Shown here: one piece after another, positions 2,141 to 7,621 of the stretch
Layout: each line of letters begins with the position of its first letter
Numbering within the stretch: position 1 is the stretch's first letter
Source of the DNA: Verrucomicrobiota bacterium
Lineage (GTDB): Bacteria; Verrucomicrobiota; Verrucomicrobiia; Chthoniobacterales; UBA6821
Direction of reading: 5' to 3'
DNA length: 7,621 nucleotides
NCBI GenBank assembly: GCA_016871655.1
Contig: VHCR01000062.1
Coordinates: 1-7,621 of the forward strand
Made by a program: the position numbers and the translations under genes
The notes under the pieces: generated by a model
What the model was told of the DNA's origin: nothing
What the model saw: the letters and a program-made list of their open reading frames with translations, nothing else
Databases searched by the model: none

Positions 2141-2352
2141 GAATTCACTACAAAGAACACACAAAAATTTTTTATAAAAAATTTTAAAGCTTTGAGAATG
2201 ACGAGCGCAGATGAGCTTGAAGGTTCGAAGACTTGGAATCATGGAAAGTTAAAAAACGGATTCAATTTTTAACATTTAGATTTTTTTTATAAAAAAATCT
2301 TTTGTATTCTTTGTGTGCGGCGTAGCAGCTTTGTGATTTTTGTGGTGAATTG
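2141..2352. repeat. Inverted pair of TTCACCACAAAG-type repeat modules with AT palindromes
   Basis: The left module (2141-2190, plus orientation) begins GAATTCACTACAAAGAACAC and runs into a perfect 22-bp AT palindrome at 2164-2185. The right module (2278-2352, minus orientation) has the same order: a TTCACCACAAA word, a GAATACAAAAG word, then a near-perfect palindrome of T and A runs around 2278-2300. The two face each other across about 87 bp without visible features. The right copy lies inside the 3' end of cerR and supplies its last 25 or so codons and stop. The inverted arrangement could form a large hairpin at the end of the operon transcript and may act as its terminator. Confidence 0.55.
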
Positions 2353-3346
2353 CTTTCTTACAGTGAGTAAGCCATTCGTTTGTCTCCTCAAGCGTCTCAC
2401 GCAACGTTTTTTCTGGCTTCCACTCGAAGTGTATTTGAAAAAGAGTGCCATCAGCAACCCAACGTTGAGGTAGAATTTCTTTAATGCGATCGGGTCCGAG
2501 GCTCTGCAGAGGTTGATGTAGAGCTGGAATCCGATCGACAATGAGGGAGACCAATTGCAATAAAAAATGAGGTAGTCGAAGAGTGAGCCCTCGTTTTTTT
2601 AAGACATCTGCTGTTGTTTGAATCAGCTCGAGGTCGGTTATCGATTGAGGATTAGTCACAAAATAGGGAAAAGGAGAAAATTTTTTCCAATCAACACTTG
2701 CTGCGAGCAAGAGCGCTTCACAAAGGTCATCGACTGAAATCCAACTATATTCTTTTGGCTTTACCCCTGGCTTCATTCGGAATGGAGAGGAAGCCATTTG
2801 AAAAAGTGGAATTGTTGCTGTATCGCGCGGTCCAAGGATGATGGGAGGGCGAATGATGAGAAGACGCTCTGCATAATGATCGCGCAGCTTTTGCTCCATC
2901 GCTAATTTTGATTCGCCATACCACGAGACGGGAGAAGATTGATGTTCATGCTGACGTACAGGATGTACTGACGGGGTTGGGCCAGCCGCTGAAAGGGAGG
3001 AGAGAACAAGGAAGCGTGTTCTTTTGGGAAGCTGTGCAAAAAGTTGTAACGTCCCGTCGACATGTGTTTCAAAATAATTTTTTTTCTCGCGCGAAAAAGT
3101 CAGCCCAGCGCAATGAATGACCAGATCAGGCTCTGGAGCTTCTTCCAAATCCCAAATATTATTTTTGACGGAGCAAAGATGCACGTTCTCTGGAAGTCTC
3201 TTAATTCCTTCCTCCGCGAGCTGTGATAAAAATTTTTCTTTGCTACGAACGGGAAGGATAATTTCAGACCATGTTGGATCTTGTAAAACGCGTAACAACA
3301 AATTGCGTCCGACAAAACCCGTAGAGCCAGTTAGTAAGAGATTCAC
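2276..3346 (-). CDS. cerR: NAD(P)-dependent epimerase/dehydratase, probable ceramide reductase
   Basis: This 356-residue extended short-chain dehydrogenase has the Rossmann nucleotide loop TGSTGFVG at residues 6-13, a Ser-rich catalytic strand (LSSLSAAGP, 115-123), the YxxxK pair Tyr143/Lys147 in YGESKLAMEQ, and RPPIILGP at 166-173. Family membership alone does not give the substrate. The role rests on position: it follows spt and bcerS, matching the trio in Caulobacter, where CerR reduces the 3-keto group of the N-acylated intermediate to ceramide. It is probably cytosolic or inner-membrane-associated. The start is GTG at 3346, forced by the Rossmann strand beginning at residue 2; no clear Shine-Dalgarno is seen. 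Residues from about 332 onward (IHHKNHK...HTKNTKDFF) are encoded by an intergenic repeat and are unlikely to belong to the fold. The gene is separated from bcerS by a 221-nt repeat-filled gap. Alternative: a sugar-nucleotide or sterol-type dehydrogenase. Confidence 0.75.
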   Translation of the reverse strand: MNLLLTGSTGFVGRNLLLRVLQDPTWSEIILPVRSKEKFLSQLAEEGIKRLPENVHLCSVKNNIWDLEEAPEPDLVIHCAGLTFSREKKNYFETHVDGTLQLFAQLPKRTRFLVLSSLSAAGPTPSVHPVRQHEHQSSPVSWYGESKLAMEQKLRDHYAERLLIIRPPIILGPRDTATIPLFQMASSPFRMKPGVKPKEYSWISVDDLCEALLLAASVDWKKFSPFPYFVTNPQSITDLELIQTTADVLKKRGLTLRLPHFLLQLVSLIVDRIPALHQPLQSLGPDRIKEILPQRWVADGTLFQIHFEWKPEKTLRETLEETNEWLTHCKKAIHHKNHKAATPHTKNTKDFFIKKI

Positions 3347-3375
3347 AGGAATGGAAGAAGTGATGAAAGAAAAAA

Positions 3376-3597
3376 GAATTCACCACAAAGAAGCTTTTTG
3401 AGAAGATGGAAGATAGAAGATGGAAGATGGAAGTCGAGGCCTTCGGCAAGATTTTAAAGCTAGAAGATAGTTATATTTTCAGTAACAATTCTGAGTCGCT
3501 TGTCTTCAAAATTGTCTGCGAAGCAGACCACAACTCCTATCTTCCATCTTCTATCTCCCATCTTCAATTATTCTTTGTGATCCTTGTGGTGAATTTC
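3376..3597. repeat. Composite inverted-repeat element A between bcerS and cerR
   Basis: The left arm contains GAATTCACCACAAAG (3376-3390), then a run of GGAAGATA-type units (about 3402-3433) and AAGTCGAGGCC (3431-3441). The right arm, read on the minus strand, has the same three parts in the same order: GAAATTCACCACAAGG (3597-3582), GAAGATGGGAGATAGAAG-type units (about 3566-3537), then a GGAGTTGTGG word. A perfect 6-bp-stem hairpin GTCTGC-GAA-GCAGAC is at 3514-3528. The middle (about 3455-3510) is unremarkable. The element fills the gap between the bcerS and cerR coding regions and enters the 3' end of bcerS. Transcribed RNA could fold into a long hairpin and reduce or stabilise the cerR portion of the message. 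A MITE-like origin is possible but no target-site duplication could be settled. Confidence 0.6.
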
Positions 3598-4740
3598 TTT
3601 CTCAAAAATCTGATATGTTTTATCGCGATGACCGTTCATGAGTTCGGCTCCTTCCAAAATTTCCGTGTTGTTGGCTTCGACCCAAGAGACCTCGGAGCGC
3701 TGATATTTAGCCTTAGTGCGAACGTAAGCTTCATAAAACAAAAGGGCACTTAATCCTTTGTCTCGATACTCAGGATCAACACCGAGAACGCAGAGTCGAG
3801 CAGCGGTTGGTCTCTGAAATTGAATCCTCAAGGCCATTTCTAAAAAGCGTAAGATTCCCTTCCGTCCACGTGATGCGTGAAAGAGCTCATTCATGTTTGG
3901 GAGGGAGAGGCTAAAGGCAACATCACGTCCATCAGCTTGCGCAAAGAGGATCAAGCTCGGATCAGCAATCGCTTTTAAATCATCGGCAGCATGGAGGAGT
4001 TCATCAAGTGACATTGGATAAAATCCCCAGTTACGATCGAGGGTTCTGTTGTAAAGGCGATGAATGATTTCCATTTCCTTTTTTAAATTTTTCATGTCAA
4101 TGCTGCGAATGGAAATGTTATTTCGCTTTTTTAATCGAGTAACGATTTTATTCACCCGCTCAGGCGTCTCTTGCTGAAGAGGAACCATCCAAGAATAGAG
4201 GGTCCGAACTGGCTCTAGACCTGCAGCGCGATAGAGAGACTCATAGTAAGCAGGATTCCATGGCATCGAGATGAAAGAGGGAGTCTCAAATCCTTCAGTC
4301 AAAACTCCACAATCATCATTGATCGATGGATTGTAGGGACCTCGCAGGGAAGTCATCCCTTCTTTTTTGACAATCTTGGCAACGGCGTCTACTAAAGCTT
4401 TCGCGATGGCAGCATCATTAATACAGTCAAAAAATCCAAAAAATCCAACTTGGTCTTTGTTGTAGTTGTTGTGAGAGCGGTTGATGATTGCTGCAATCCG
4501 GCCGACAGGTTTTCCTTTTTTAAAAGCAATCAACGGTGTGATGGAGCCATGTTGCTTACAAAAAGCGCCGTTCGGTTCAATTAATTTCACAACGCTTCCT
4601 GGAAAAGGAGGCGTAAAACACGGCTCCTTCGCATGGAGGAGCTCGGGAATGTTTTCAAAAAGTTTTCTATCTGTCTTGCTCTTGCAAGGCAAAATCGAAA
4701 ATGTTGCGTCGTCGGCCTGGTTGTGTGTATGCAGGATCAT
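3568..4740 (-). CDS. bcerS: GNAT-like acyltransferase, probable bacterial ceramide synthase (YghO-type)
   Basis: The 390-residue product belongs to the YghO-like family related to GNAT acyltransferases. Its signature is GPYNPSINDDCGVLTEGF at residues 134-151, with an N-terminal segment typical of the family (KSKTDRKLFENIP, about 20-32) and a C-terminal acyltransferase half with LGVDPEYRDKGLSALLFYE (319-337) and SWVEANNTEILEGAELMNG (352-370). The Caulobacter member is the bacterial ceramide synthase that N-acylates 3-ketosphinganine, and the adjoining spt gene supports that reading. ATG 4740 is preceded by AGGA seven bases upstream and lies inside spt, so the two genes overlap by 74 nt and are probably translationally coupled. 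A shorter start would cut the conserved N terminus. The last eight residues (IHHKDHKE) and the stop come from repeat element A. Acyl-donor choice cannot be inferred. No membrane segment is apparent. Confidence 0.8.
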   Translation of the reverse strand: MILHTHNQADDATFSILPCKSKTDRKLFENIPELLHAKEPCFTPPFPGSVVKLIEPNGAFCKQHGSITPLIAFKKGKPVGRIAAIINRSHNNYNKDQVGFFGFFDCINDAAIAKALVDAVAKIVKKEGMTSLRGPYNPSINDDCGVLTEGFETPSFISMPWNPAYYESLYRAAGLEPVRTLYSWMVPLQQETPERVNKIVTRLKKRNNISIRSIDMKNLKKEMEIIHRLYNRTLDRNWGFYPMSLDELLHAADDLKAIADPSLILFAQADGRDVAFSLSLPNMNELFHASRGRKGILRFLEMALRIQFQRPTAARLCVLGVDPEYRDKGLSALLFYEAYVRTKAKYQRSEVSWVEANNTEILEGAELMNGHRDKTYQIFEKEIHHKDHKE

Positions 4741-5926
4741 CGAAGGTTCCTAGTTCACGGGCTAATTTTGTAAAGATTTCTAAAATGAAATCGAGATCTT
4801 TTTCGCTGTGCGTTGACATGAAGCTGGTCCGCACAATTGCTTCTCCGTAGCGCACAGCAGGGTAAATGGCTGGAGTCGCAAAAATCCCTTCATCAAAGAG
4901 TCGCTGTGAAAAAGCGAAGGCCTTGGCTTCACTTCCAATCAAAATAGGAACGATCGGTGTTTGCGTCGAGCCAATGTTAAACCCAATCGATTTGAAACCT
5001 GCGTGCATTTTGTGGGTGTTTTTCCACAGCTGATCAATCCGTTCTGGCTCGCTCTGCATGATTTCAAGAGCCTTGAGGACGCCTCCGACGACGGCAGGAG
5101 CAAGAGCTGCTGTGAAAATTAAACAGCGCGCTTTGTGCTTTAAAAATTCAATCATCTCGCGAGAGCCAGCGATAAAACCGCCCATCGAGCCGAGTGATTT
5201 TGAAAAAGTTCCCATGACAATCTCAACGTCATCATTCACACCAAAGTGATGGACCGTGCCGCGGCCTTGTGGTCCCAAAACGCCAAGCGAATGAGCTTCG
5301 TCAACATACATGACGCCGCCATATTCTTTGCTGACTTCAATCATTGCAGGAAGATCGGCAATGTCTCCCGACATGCTAAAGACACCGTCCATGACGACTA
5401 ATTTTCCGGCATTTGCCGGGAGGCGCTTGAGGCGATTTCGAAGAGCAGCAGCGGAGTTGTGTCGATAGGGGACGAGGCGCGCTTCAGAAGTTTGGCATCC
5501 TTCGATGATGCTAGCGTGATTTTCACGATCGCAGAGGATGGCATCTTCCGCTTCTGTCAACGCCGTGAGCGCTCCCTGATTGGCAAAAAATCCGGTCGAA
5601 AAAAGAAGAACAGCTTCTCGCTGTAAAAAATCAGCCAATGCTTCCTCAAGTTGTTCGTGCAAGCTGATCGTTCCATTGAGCAGGCGAGAGCCAGTGCATC
5701 CTGCGCCAAAACGACGAGTTGCTGCACAGGCAGCTTCTATGACGCGAGGATCTTGGGCAAGGCCAAGATAGTTGTTGGAACCGATCATGATCTTCTTCTT
5801 GCCTTCGCAGATCACATGATTACCTTCGCTGTCATCAATACGTCGAAAGTAAGGGTAGAATCCTTGGGCACGTGCATCTTTCGCGTCATGATACTCGCGG
5901 CATTTTTTGAAAATATCTTTGGCCAT
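4667..5926 (-). CDS. spt: Alpha-oxoamine synthase, probable serine palmitoyltransferase
   Basis: This 419-residue PLP enzyme of the alpha-oxoamine synthase family (fold type I) catalyses decarboxylative condensation of an amino acid with an acyl thioester. Visible features are IMIGSNNYLGL (46-56), a glycine-rich FGAGCTGSRLLNGT (73-86), His137 in DRENHAS for cofactor stacking, Asp180, DEAHSLGVLG (209-218) with Asp209 and His212, and the Schiff-base Lys243 in GTFSKSLGSMGGF. GTFSKS with GGF favours serine palmitoyltransferase over 8-amino-7-oxononanoate synthase (BioF) or 2-amino-3-ketobutyrate ligase, which usually have GTLGKA. An Arg366-containing segment (IVRTSFMSTHSEKDLD) follows. The product would be 3-ketosphinganine, the first step of sphingolipid synthesis, in the cytosol. 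The gene begins 23 nt after the glycosyltransferase stop and has no clear Shine-Dalgarno. Its last 25 codons overlap bcerS in another frame. It has full family length and no missing key residue. Confidence 0.85.
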   Translation of the reverse strand: MAKDIFKKCREYHDAKDARAQGFYPYFRRIDDSEGNHVICEGKKKIMIGSNNYLGLAQDPRVIEAACAATRRFGAGCTGSRLLNGTISLHEQLEEALADFLQREAVLLFSTGFFANQGALTALTEAEDAILCDRENHASIIEGCQTSEARLVPYRHNSAAALRNRLKRLPANAGKLVVMDGVFSMSGDIADLPAMIEVSKEYGGVMYVDEAHSLGVLGPQGRGTVHHFGVNDDVEIVMGTFSKSLGSMGGFIAGSREMIEFLKHKARCLIFTAALAPAVVGGVLKALEIMQSEPERIDQLWKNTHKMHAGFKSIGFNIGSTQTPIVPILIGSEAKAFAFSQRLFDEGIFATPAIYPAVRYGEAIVRTSFMSTHSEKDLDFILEIFTKLARELGTFDDPAYTQPGRRRNIFDFALQEQDR

Positions 5927-5949: not shown

Positions 5950-7245
5950 CTAGACTAGGGGAAAAAATTTTCCCAGCATTTTTTGCAGGGTCTTAGCTGC
6001 ATCAAAATATTCTATGGCTGTGGAGCGTGCGAGTTTTGAAAAACGAGGCCTATCTCTTAGCACGCGACGCGAGGATTCTAGGGCCTCTTCGAGATTGCGA
6101 ACAAAAAGTATGCCGCTTTCAGAAGGTAGGAATTTTTCAGCTCCAGTTGGCTCTGTGATTACTGGTCGACCGAGTCCCAGATAGGCAGCGGCGCGGTCGC
6201 TAAGCCAACCGCTCTGCATTTGAGCCTCTAATTTTACTGCAGTGAATTCGGCAAAAGAACCGGCAAGGTAATCGTAGTAACGTTGAGGTGTTGGCATGAG
6301 TCGATGAGGGGAGACAACATGCCACCCCAGTTTGCGCAAGCGTTTTCGTTCTGGATCGTCAGGATTCAAGTTCATTGCTAATTCAAAAATGGCTTCCGGC
6401 ATCCGTCGCGGCAGCTCCATGTAAGGCTCAAAGGCAGCTTTTTTAGAAAAGTCACGATAGATGCCATCGATTTCGATGGCTCCATCCCAATACCATTGAC
6501 CAATTGTGGTAAAGCGAGGACGCGTGGCAACGATCGGTTGAGGTTTTACTTTCAAAAACTGAGTATCGACGAGTGGAAAAAAAGAGTTCCATGGAACTGG
6601 CGATTTTGGAAGACGTCGATCAATCTGATCCATGCAGAGCCCAACAGACCAAAATTCATCGTGATACGACTGCCCCATCTCTATTTGGTTCATCCAAAAT
6701 AAAACCTCGGAAGGATCAAGACTGCAGAGCAATTTCTTTCCAAAAAGAGTGAGGAGAGGAGGCTTAATTGAATAACTGAGATTGAGGAGCGCTCCGTGTG
6801 GCGCTAGCTCACGAAGAGTGGCGATACTCATTCCATGAGATTTCATCTGCTCAAGATCGTGCTCTTCCGGTTTTTTTTGCTGGAGAATTTTTGGTTCGAG
6901 TAAAAGGCAATACTCCAGTCCATAGTACCTCATCCGACGTTCAAAAATTCTAATACGACTGGCATCGAGTTTGGCGTCGCCACTTTCGGGAAGAACCTCA
7001 AGCCAGATGCCGCGAAAGCCTTGTTTTTTCAGGCGCTGCAGACCGAGTAAATATTGCAACGGCACAGAAAAATTACCCCCGCCCATCGGATATTTCGCGG
7101 CAAAGCCACAACCGAGGAAGACAGGCTGGAGACTGGATATTGGAGGTCGGAGGAGATTCACAAGGATGGAAGGGATGGAAAGTGAAATCAGGAGATAGAA
7201 GATGGAAGATAGAAGATAGAAGTTGAGGCCTGCTATGGCAGGCAT
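5950..7245 (-). CDS. CgeB-like GT-B glycosyltransferase, start uncertain
   Basis: The open frame is 431 codons. Residues from about 42 look conserved: VFLGCGFAAKYPMGGGNFS is the first GT-B strand and loop, and the C-terminal donor-binding half carries SGWLSDRAAAYLGLGRPVI (345-363) followed by EPTG. The same block is in the neighbouring partial gene, so the two are paralogues. It probably transfers a sugar from a nucleotide donor in the cytosol; donor and acceptor are unknown. Being 23 nt upstream of spt, it may glycosylate ceramide or a related envelope lipid. Residues 1-30 (NFYLLSSIFYLLISLSIPS) come from GGAAGATA-type repeat DNA read backwards and look like a membrane anchor by accident. Candidate starts are ATG 7245, GTG 7161 (which shares GTGAATCTC with the cerR start) and ATG 7086, which would cut the first strand. 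None has a Shine-Dalgarno. The full frame is reported because the true start cannot be settled. Confidence 0.7.
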   Translation of the reverse strand: MPAIAGLNFYLLSSIFYLLISLSIPSILVNLLRPPISSLQPVFLGCGFAAKYPMGGGNFSVPLQYLLGLQRLKKQGFRGIWLEVLPESGDAKLDASRIRIFERRMRYYGLEYCLLLEPKILQQKKPEEHDLEQMKSHGMSIATLRELAPHGALLNLSYSIKPPLLTLFGKKLLCSLDPSEVLFWMNQIEMGQSYHDEFWSVGLCMDQIDRRLPKSPVPWNSFFPLVDTQFLKVKPQPIVATRPRFTTIGQWYWDGAIEIDGIYRDFSKKAAFEPYMELPRRMPEAIFELAMNLNPDDPERKRLRKLGWHVVSPHRLMPTPQRYYDYLAGSFAEFTAVKLEAQMQSGWLSDRAAAYLGLGRPVITEPTGAEKFLPSESGILFVRNLEEALESSRRVLRDRPRFSKLARSTAIEYFDAAKTLQKMLGKFFPLV

Positions 7246-7344: not shown

Positions 7345-7621
7345 TTATACTCCAGCTCGCTCCAGAAGCGACTTGAGGACTTTTTCTGCTTCGAAAAATT
7401 CGCGTGCAATTTCTAAGGCAGCACGAGAATGCTTTTTGTAATCGGCACGAATCGAGCGAGCGGCTTCTATAATTTCTTCCATCGTGGAAAATCCGATGAG
7501 ACCTTCTTTTTTTTCTCCATAAAATTTGCTGAATCCTGTTTCTTGTGTGATGACAGGTCGCCCAGCCGCTAAATAACAGGCGCTGCGGTCGCTGAACCAG
7601 CCAGTGTGCAGGCGCACGTAC
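7345..7621 (-). CDS. CgeB-like glycosyltransferase, C-terminal end (5' part outside window)
   Basis: The last 92 or so codons of a minus-strand gene enter from the right edge; the frame is open to base 7621, so GTG 7617 is not a genuine start. The product contains TGWFSDRSACYLAAGRPVIT then QETGFSKF, the nucleotide-sugar-binding block also found in the next gene (SGWLSDRAAAYLGLGRPVI), and a similar helical end (AREFFEAEKVLKSLLE against IEYFDAAKTLQKML). The two are thus tandem paralogues, probably by an old duplication, since they differ at many positions. The role is likely sugar transfer to a lipid or surface polymer. It ends in TAA directly at repeat element B. Confidence 0.75.
   Translation of the reverse strand, partial: YVRLHTGWFSDRSACYLAAGRPVITQETGFSKFYGEKKEGLIGFSTMEEIIEAARSIRADYKKHSRAALEIAREFFEAEKVLKSLLERAGV

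Follow-up and report, generated by a model that had tools for sequence, protein, structure and literature searches.

We analysed a 7,621-nt stretch of DNA, hereafter the window, which covers positions 1 to 7,621 of contig VHCR01000062.1 (C62) in a Verrucomicrobiota assembly of the order Chthoniobacterales (GCA_016871655.1; 1.80 Mb, 350 contigs, 86.7% complete). Three adjoining genes on the minus strand, spt, cerS (bcerS) and cerR, encode an alpha-oxoamine synthase, a tandem-GNAT acyltransferase and an extended short-chain dehydrogenase/reductase (SDR). Their Pfam matches were to Aminotran_1_2 (E = 1e-57), GNAT Acetyltransf_1 (E = 1.7e-5) and Epimerase/extended SDR (E = 2.7e-18), respectively. 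The list of open reading frames (ORFs), the Pfam matches and an alignment confirmed the coordinates, gene order and lysine loop of the original prediction, which had been made from the sequence alone and had read the genes as a ceramide synthesis module. Since the acyltransferase recurs in the order-level sample (41 of 58 genomes) and within the family (21 of 22), the own genome being included each time, these are not chance ORFs. Furthermore, when Spt, CerR and YghO of Escherichia coli BL21(DE3) were used as queries, all three found the respective window gene as the best match in its own genome. Judged by their families, the three gene products would very probably make dihydroceramide together, de novo. 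The pathway itself is already known from other bacteria; what is unusual is the gene-overlap architecture, which is conserved, in a phylum already implicated. The features are collected in Table 1.

Table 1. Features of the window, with positions counted from its first letter.
Feature	Coordinates	Strand	Basis or remark
spt, serine palmitoyltransferase-type alpha-oxoamine synthase (putative)	4667-5926	minus	419 aa; coordinates include stop codon
cerS/bcerS, YghO-type acyltransferase, tandem GNAT fold	3568-4740	minus	390 aa
cerR, extended SDR, likely ketone reductase	2276-3346	minus	356 aa, GTG start
spt/cerS out-of-frame overlap, 74 bp (Spt C-terminal tail and CerS start)	4667-4740	minus	ORF coordinates
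Pyridoxal phosphate (PLP)-lysine loop GTFSKSLGSMGGF, residues 239-251, catalytic Lys243	5174-5212	minus	alignment
Ala273 codon (Ala in Spt, Lys281 in SulA)	5108-5110	minus	alignment and rule described in PMC9304779
Dispersed repeat, arms inverted; the final CerS residues are encoded at one end	3360-3600		own-genome matches
OprB-family porin gene	272-1798	minus	downstream of the operon
tRNA-Val (gac)	2011-2085	plus	downstream of the operon

A scan of named genomes for the acyltransferase yielded 383 stretches encoding a relative, and the locus counts given here use the best 80 of these 383, which are not independent, as several are genomes of the order-level sample or close kin. Within 1.5 kb and on the same strand, a synthase was found upstream of cerS in 72 of the 80 loci, an SDR downstream in 52, and both in 51. 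Two of the counts weigh against the ceramide reading: the synthase was missing from the stretch in 8 loci, and 28 loci lacked an SDR of this kind behind cerS. Contig ends account for some of the 28, and L177 and L178 have the SDR upstream of spt instead. In a genus mate (G002; loci L083/L099) no SDR was found behind cerS, the only trace being a C-terminal SDR stretch on another contig.

In the window, the last 74 bp of spt are shared, in a different frame, with the start of cerS. We scored this overlap by a codon of the CerS core (residue 16), not by the start codon, in the window and 72 named loci, 73 in all. The core codon was within the spt frame, in one fixed relative frame, in 66 of the 73, including Bdellovibrionota and Myxococcota metagenome-assembled genomes (MAGs); the seven loci without it were L131, L138, L147, L177, L178, L179 and L180. 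With ATG starts, 66 of the 70 named loci showed a positive overlap, the median being 132.5 bp. The Spt tail carried the motif GTFDDPxY in 11 of 14 tails inspected, with diverged forms in L122, L151 and L167. At the other junction, 16 of 55 loci had an overlap of 4 bp between cerS and cerR; in the window the two are separated by a gap of 221 bp. We infer coupled translation through these overlaps, whereby the three enzymes would be produced jointly and serve de novo synthesis alone. No description of the spt/cerS overlap was found in the literature searches, few of which were aimed at overlaps.

The gap between cerS and cerR holds a dispersed repeat with 116 matches in its own 1.8-Mb assembly, the copy in the window counted. 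A 30-nt piece of the repeat recurs at 2329-2358, inside the end of the SDR gene, whose tail also matches contigs C4, C20, C24 and C25. Because the repeat codes the end of CerS, a piece of it recurs in the end of the SDR and the SDR tail also matches other contigs, the tails of both proteins look repeat-derived.

The window acyltransferase is a clear homologue of YghO. YghO of E. coli K-12 aligned with it at 30% identity across YghO residues 25-390 (E = 1.2e-43), and a search of its own genome with BL21 YghO gave the window gene as the sole match (143 bits). CerS homology was assessed through E. coli YghO; yghO of BL21(DE3) has been paired with Caulobacter CC_1154 in the role of N-acyltransferase for making dihydroceramide (PMC9386255). 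For an AlphaFold2 (AF2) model (predicted local distance difference test, pLDDT, 88.1), the top structural matches were tandem GNATs, with human N-myristoyltransferase appearing from rank 24. As the latter is a long-chain acyl-CoA enzyme, this match fits the transfer of a long acyl chain; N-acylation of a sphingoid base is the predicted activity. The identity and the sole own-genome match bear out the YghO/bCerS-type acyltransferase foreseen in the original prediction.

For the third enzyme, TGxxGxxG and the Ser/Tyr/Lys residues were invariant in all 18 aligned SDR rows, BL21 CerR among them. With BL21 CerR as query, the window SDR came first in its own genome, at 34 bits versus 23 for the next SDR. 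Its AF2 model (pLDDT 91.4) matched extended SDRs, and profile and fold searches were led by sugar-nucleotide SDRs, with NDUFA9-type subunits of complex I further down; CerR is described as homologous to NDUFA9 (PMC11087976). We built two trees. The first had 25 rows, with own-genome rows from ten of fifteen loci (L196, L197 and L202 had no usable frame, and L192 and L201 gave the same frame). It set seven of nine other SDR rows apart (98/99) but did not unite the window SDR with CerR. When the long-branched rows own_L191, own_L192, own_L199 and own_L201 were removed, CerR and the operon SDRs fell on one side of a 100/99 branch, with all five other SDRs opposite.

It could be argued that the SDR is a sugar-nucleotide or steroid-type enzyme located downstream of cerS by chance, with the ceramide staying oxidised or being reduced by another enzyme. 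The identity to BL21 CerR is only about 25%, its small lead in its own genome covers residues 64-198 only, the 25-row tree leaves the link to CerR open, sugar-nucleotide SDRs top both kinds of search, and 28 of the 80 loci lack the SDR downstream; all of this speaks against a CerR. However, the SDR is the downstream neighbour in 52 of the 80 loci, and 16 of 55 have it overlapping cerS by 4 bp; this, the grouping with CerR once four long rows were removed, and the separation of most other SDRs in the first tree and of all those kept in the second make this alternative unlikely. CerR is the likely assignment for the window SDR, and the weakest of the three: the best own-genome match and the second tree are consistent with the CerR of the original prediction, although the first tree did not unite them.

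The synthase scored higher with the NCBIfam model for serine palmitoyltransferase (489 bits) than with those for the BioF/Kbl subfamily (410) and bioF (394). Its top match in the PDB was the SPT of Sphingobacterium multivorum (399 bits), with the cysteate enzyme at 242 and E. coli BioF at 193 bits. In a search of its own genome with BL21 Spt, the window synthase gave 268 bits versus 192 for a paralogue on contig C45, for which bioF was the best model (407 bits, below the cut-off of 426). The PLP and substrate residues N51, H137, H212, K243 and R366 were conserved in the alignment. At the position of Ala273, Ala was shared by the three known Spts and every one of the 11 window-clade rows; the BioF, KBL, Thermus and C45 rows had Thr or Asn, and those of family f9 (see below) Cys. 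In a maximum likelihood tree of 27 rows, among which 5-aminolevulinate synthase (ALAS), CAI-1 synthase and SulA were not included, the 11 rows of the window clade (100/100) were found with the three known Spts on one side of a 97/94 branch, outside which were E. coli BioF, E. coli KBL, the Thermus 8-amino-7-oxononanoate synthase (AONS)/KBL enzyme and C45. The window clade was sister to the group of known Spts (91/84), not nested within it. The tree placement, Ala273 and the best matches together bear out the choice of Spt over BioF or KBL in the original prediction.

Several observations count against placing the synthase among the Spts. The curated NCBIfam Spt cut-offs were all missed (489/640 for CFB, 401/500 for beta and 336/670 for alpha), whereas BL21 Spt clears its own model with 599 against a cut-off of 500; a Nitrospirota synthase that the tree placed among known Spts likewise missed its cut-off (565/640). 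In the PDB list, the Thermus BioF/KBL enzyme (302 bits) outranked the SPTs of Sphingomonas (295 and 284 bits), the tree program warned of long branches, and L096, a synthase without a nearby cerS, grouped among the known Spts. Because the cut-offs were missed, we file the synthase as Spt-like and not as a member of the Spt equivalogs.

We further considered that the cluster might produce a ceramide-like lipid on another amino acid, i.e., a sulfonolipid from cysteate through a SulA-type enzyme, or a 1-deoxyceramide from alanine. The cysteate acyl-ACP transferase SulA of Alistipes is alike in fold and in most active-site residues, having the Spt fold and nearly the same active site, with Ala versus Lys281 as the residue separating Spt from SulA (PMC9304779), and acylation and reduction would be common to both pathways. 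At the Lys281 position, the window (Ala273) and each of the 11 aligned members of its clade nevertheless have Ala, which disfavours a SulA/sulfonolipid reading, and the cysteate enzyme scored below SPT in the PDB (242 versus 399 bits). Alanine as substrate would be compatible with the sequence, but overall we regard another amino acid as quite improbable. A BioF- or KBL-type identity of the first gene, with neighbours serving another pathway, is more improbable still and was rejected on Ala273 and the tree: the label 8-amino-7-oxononanoate synthase given by JGI to many close homologues of a Bdellovibrionota member, the bioF model score of 394 bits and the Thermus enzyme as the second-ranked kind in the PDB list point toward it, but it is countered also by the separate paralogue with bioF as best model and by the CerS and CerR neighbours. 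We suggest that many database entries named 8-amino-7-oxononanoate synthase may be Spts.

A further pair of such genes was observed in family f9 of the same order (L075, L076, L077 and L078). The YghO-like gene there is nearer to E. coli YghO (36-41%) than to that of the window, and an oxoamine synthase that has diverged strongly is found a few kb away. In the three f9 synthases aligned, Tyr replaces Asn and Cys replaces the diagnostic Ala; these rows form a long branch at the base of the window clade in the synthase tree.

For the ceramide pathway that we favour, the families predict the following steps. The PLP enzyme would likely condense serine with a long-chain acyl thioester to 3-keto-sphinganine, the tandem-GNAT enzyme would N-acylate 3-keto-sphinganine, and the SDR would reduce the 3-ketone using NAD(P)H, the last two in either order. 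The N-acylation before reduction of the original prediction agrees with one published model, in which Caulobacter CerR is placed in the periplasm and acylation first is favoured (PMC11087976), but not with another, in which reduction first is described and the alternative mentioned (PMC9386255). The Rossmann motif of the window SDR starts from residue 6, with 11 codons upstream before a stop, leaving no room for a classical signal peptide; BL21 CerR as annotated likewise begins straight at the Rossmann strand. Since annotated BL21 CerR has no signal peptide either, this does not discriminate.

In Rhodobacteria, acpR precedes spt (PMC9386255). We scanned 121 sequences (the window, 40 and 80 loci) for acpR and aasR, using ORFs of at least 50 aa and E 1e-6. 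None of the 121 locus sequences had an acpR-like ORF and three had an aasR-like ORF, all distant matches, the rest of the genomes not having been searched. Hence the five-gene layout of Rhodobacteria, in which acpR stands immediately ahead of spt and aasR is present too, was not seen in these loci. As no AcpR gene is seen beside spt, the acyl donor of the first step would likely be acyl-CoA or a housekeeping acyl-ACP. A more far-reaching idea, which we put forward tentatively and think somewhat less probable than its opposite, is that a translationally locked operon without AcpR is common to Chthoniobacterales, Bdellovibrionota and Myxococcota. The cerS start, lying out of frame within the Spt tail, would fix the Spt:CerS ratio; 3-keto-sphinganine would be handed on directly, all steps would be cytoplasmic and dedicated to de novo synthesis, and the cassette would have moved between phyla as a block.

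A phylum-wide profile of the acyltransferase matched 35 of 288 genomes at E 0.001; this gives only an upper view of its spread, since about half of the matches were weak or partial. The named relatives were Chthoniobacterales/Spartobacteria MAGs, some with lake names. The intracellular host raised in the original prediction is rejected as unsupported: no sign of it was seen among these relatives, and the 0.9-Mb genomes of the order have no spt or cerS match. In those two genomes (G028 and G038, one contig each), neither the acyltransferase nor the synthase was matched, and SDR matches were weak only. G046, a 2.5-Mb genome of the same genus, carries the full three-gene set; this looks like loss with genome reduction, because G028 and G038 are without spt and cerS while G046 keeps all three genes. 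Five MAGs titled Bdellovibrio-type or Deltaproteobacteria (L121, L122, L151, L156 and L168) have the same three genes in a string, spt and cerS again overlapping in that frame, with an Spt 67-70% identical, and the rows of L122, L151 and L123 nest inside the verrucomicrobial Spt clade (93/91). Transfer of the operon between phyla is possible on these data.

Upstream of spt, on the same strand, are two glycosyltransferase-like genes (PF13524, weak) at 5950-7245 and 7345-7620. The nearer one ends 23 bp before spt; among all loci searched, only genus-mate loci yielded it, three out of four. These genes might glycosylate the lipid product. A search of the own genome for glucosylceramide synthase-type GT21 gave two matches, of which the one within an 888-aa frame on C90 exceeded the cut-off and the one on C37 fell short of it. 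Neither could be tied to sphingolipids, and a sphingolipid head group made through GT21 is not claimed. Ten proteins from the flanks of L084, L082 and L122 had no common lipid function.

The original prediction called bacterial sphingolipid makers few, a view now outdated, as Spt-like genes have been reported in 38 phyla, with 40 phyla in total (PMC11334938). The same Black Sea survey lists 22 Verrucomicrobiota MAGs with Spt-like genes and describes clusters with bCerS and CerR, and one-sugar ceramides in fluids correlate with Verrucomicrobiota among several other groups (PMC10667739). Like the window, clade B of the Spt-like genes in that survey has CerR and bCerS near Spt-like genes, in many phyla; a gene overlap is not mentioned in the text consulted (PMC11334938). 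In Bacteroidota, the three ceramide genes are described as not close together (PMC11334938). The Bacteroidetes-type Spt of S. multivorum (3a2b/8guh) is the closest solved relative of the window synthase, with the catalytic residues and the diagnostic Ala alike, whereas the window clade is a 100/100 group of its own with a C-terminal tail that bears the cerS overlap.

In Caulobacter crescentus and E. coli BL21(DE3), whose gene clusters have been set beside each other (PMC9386255), the set consists of aasR, cerR, acpR, spt and cerS (CC_1154/yghO), and Spt, CerS and CerR are homologous to those of the window. The window-type loci differ from this set in acpR-like (0/121) and aasR-like ORFs (3/121, distant). 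They differ also in layout: cerS is in the same gene string as spt in the window and overlaps it, whereas yghO of BL21 is on the strand opposite to spt, cerR, acpR and aasR. It was stated in 2024 that bacterial cerS is always in an operon apart from the de novo genes, and a sphingolipid salvage pathway was hinted at on this basis (PMC11324152). This statement seems to fail here, because cerS overlaps spt and cerR is often next to it, and the window layout seems to be a counter-example to it, on condition that these tightly spaced genes form one transcript. A compact cassette supplying Spt, CerS and CerR together, as this one would, offers a system in which the published models of the order of steps become testable.

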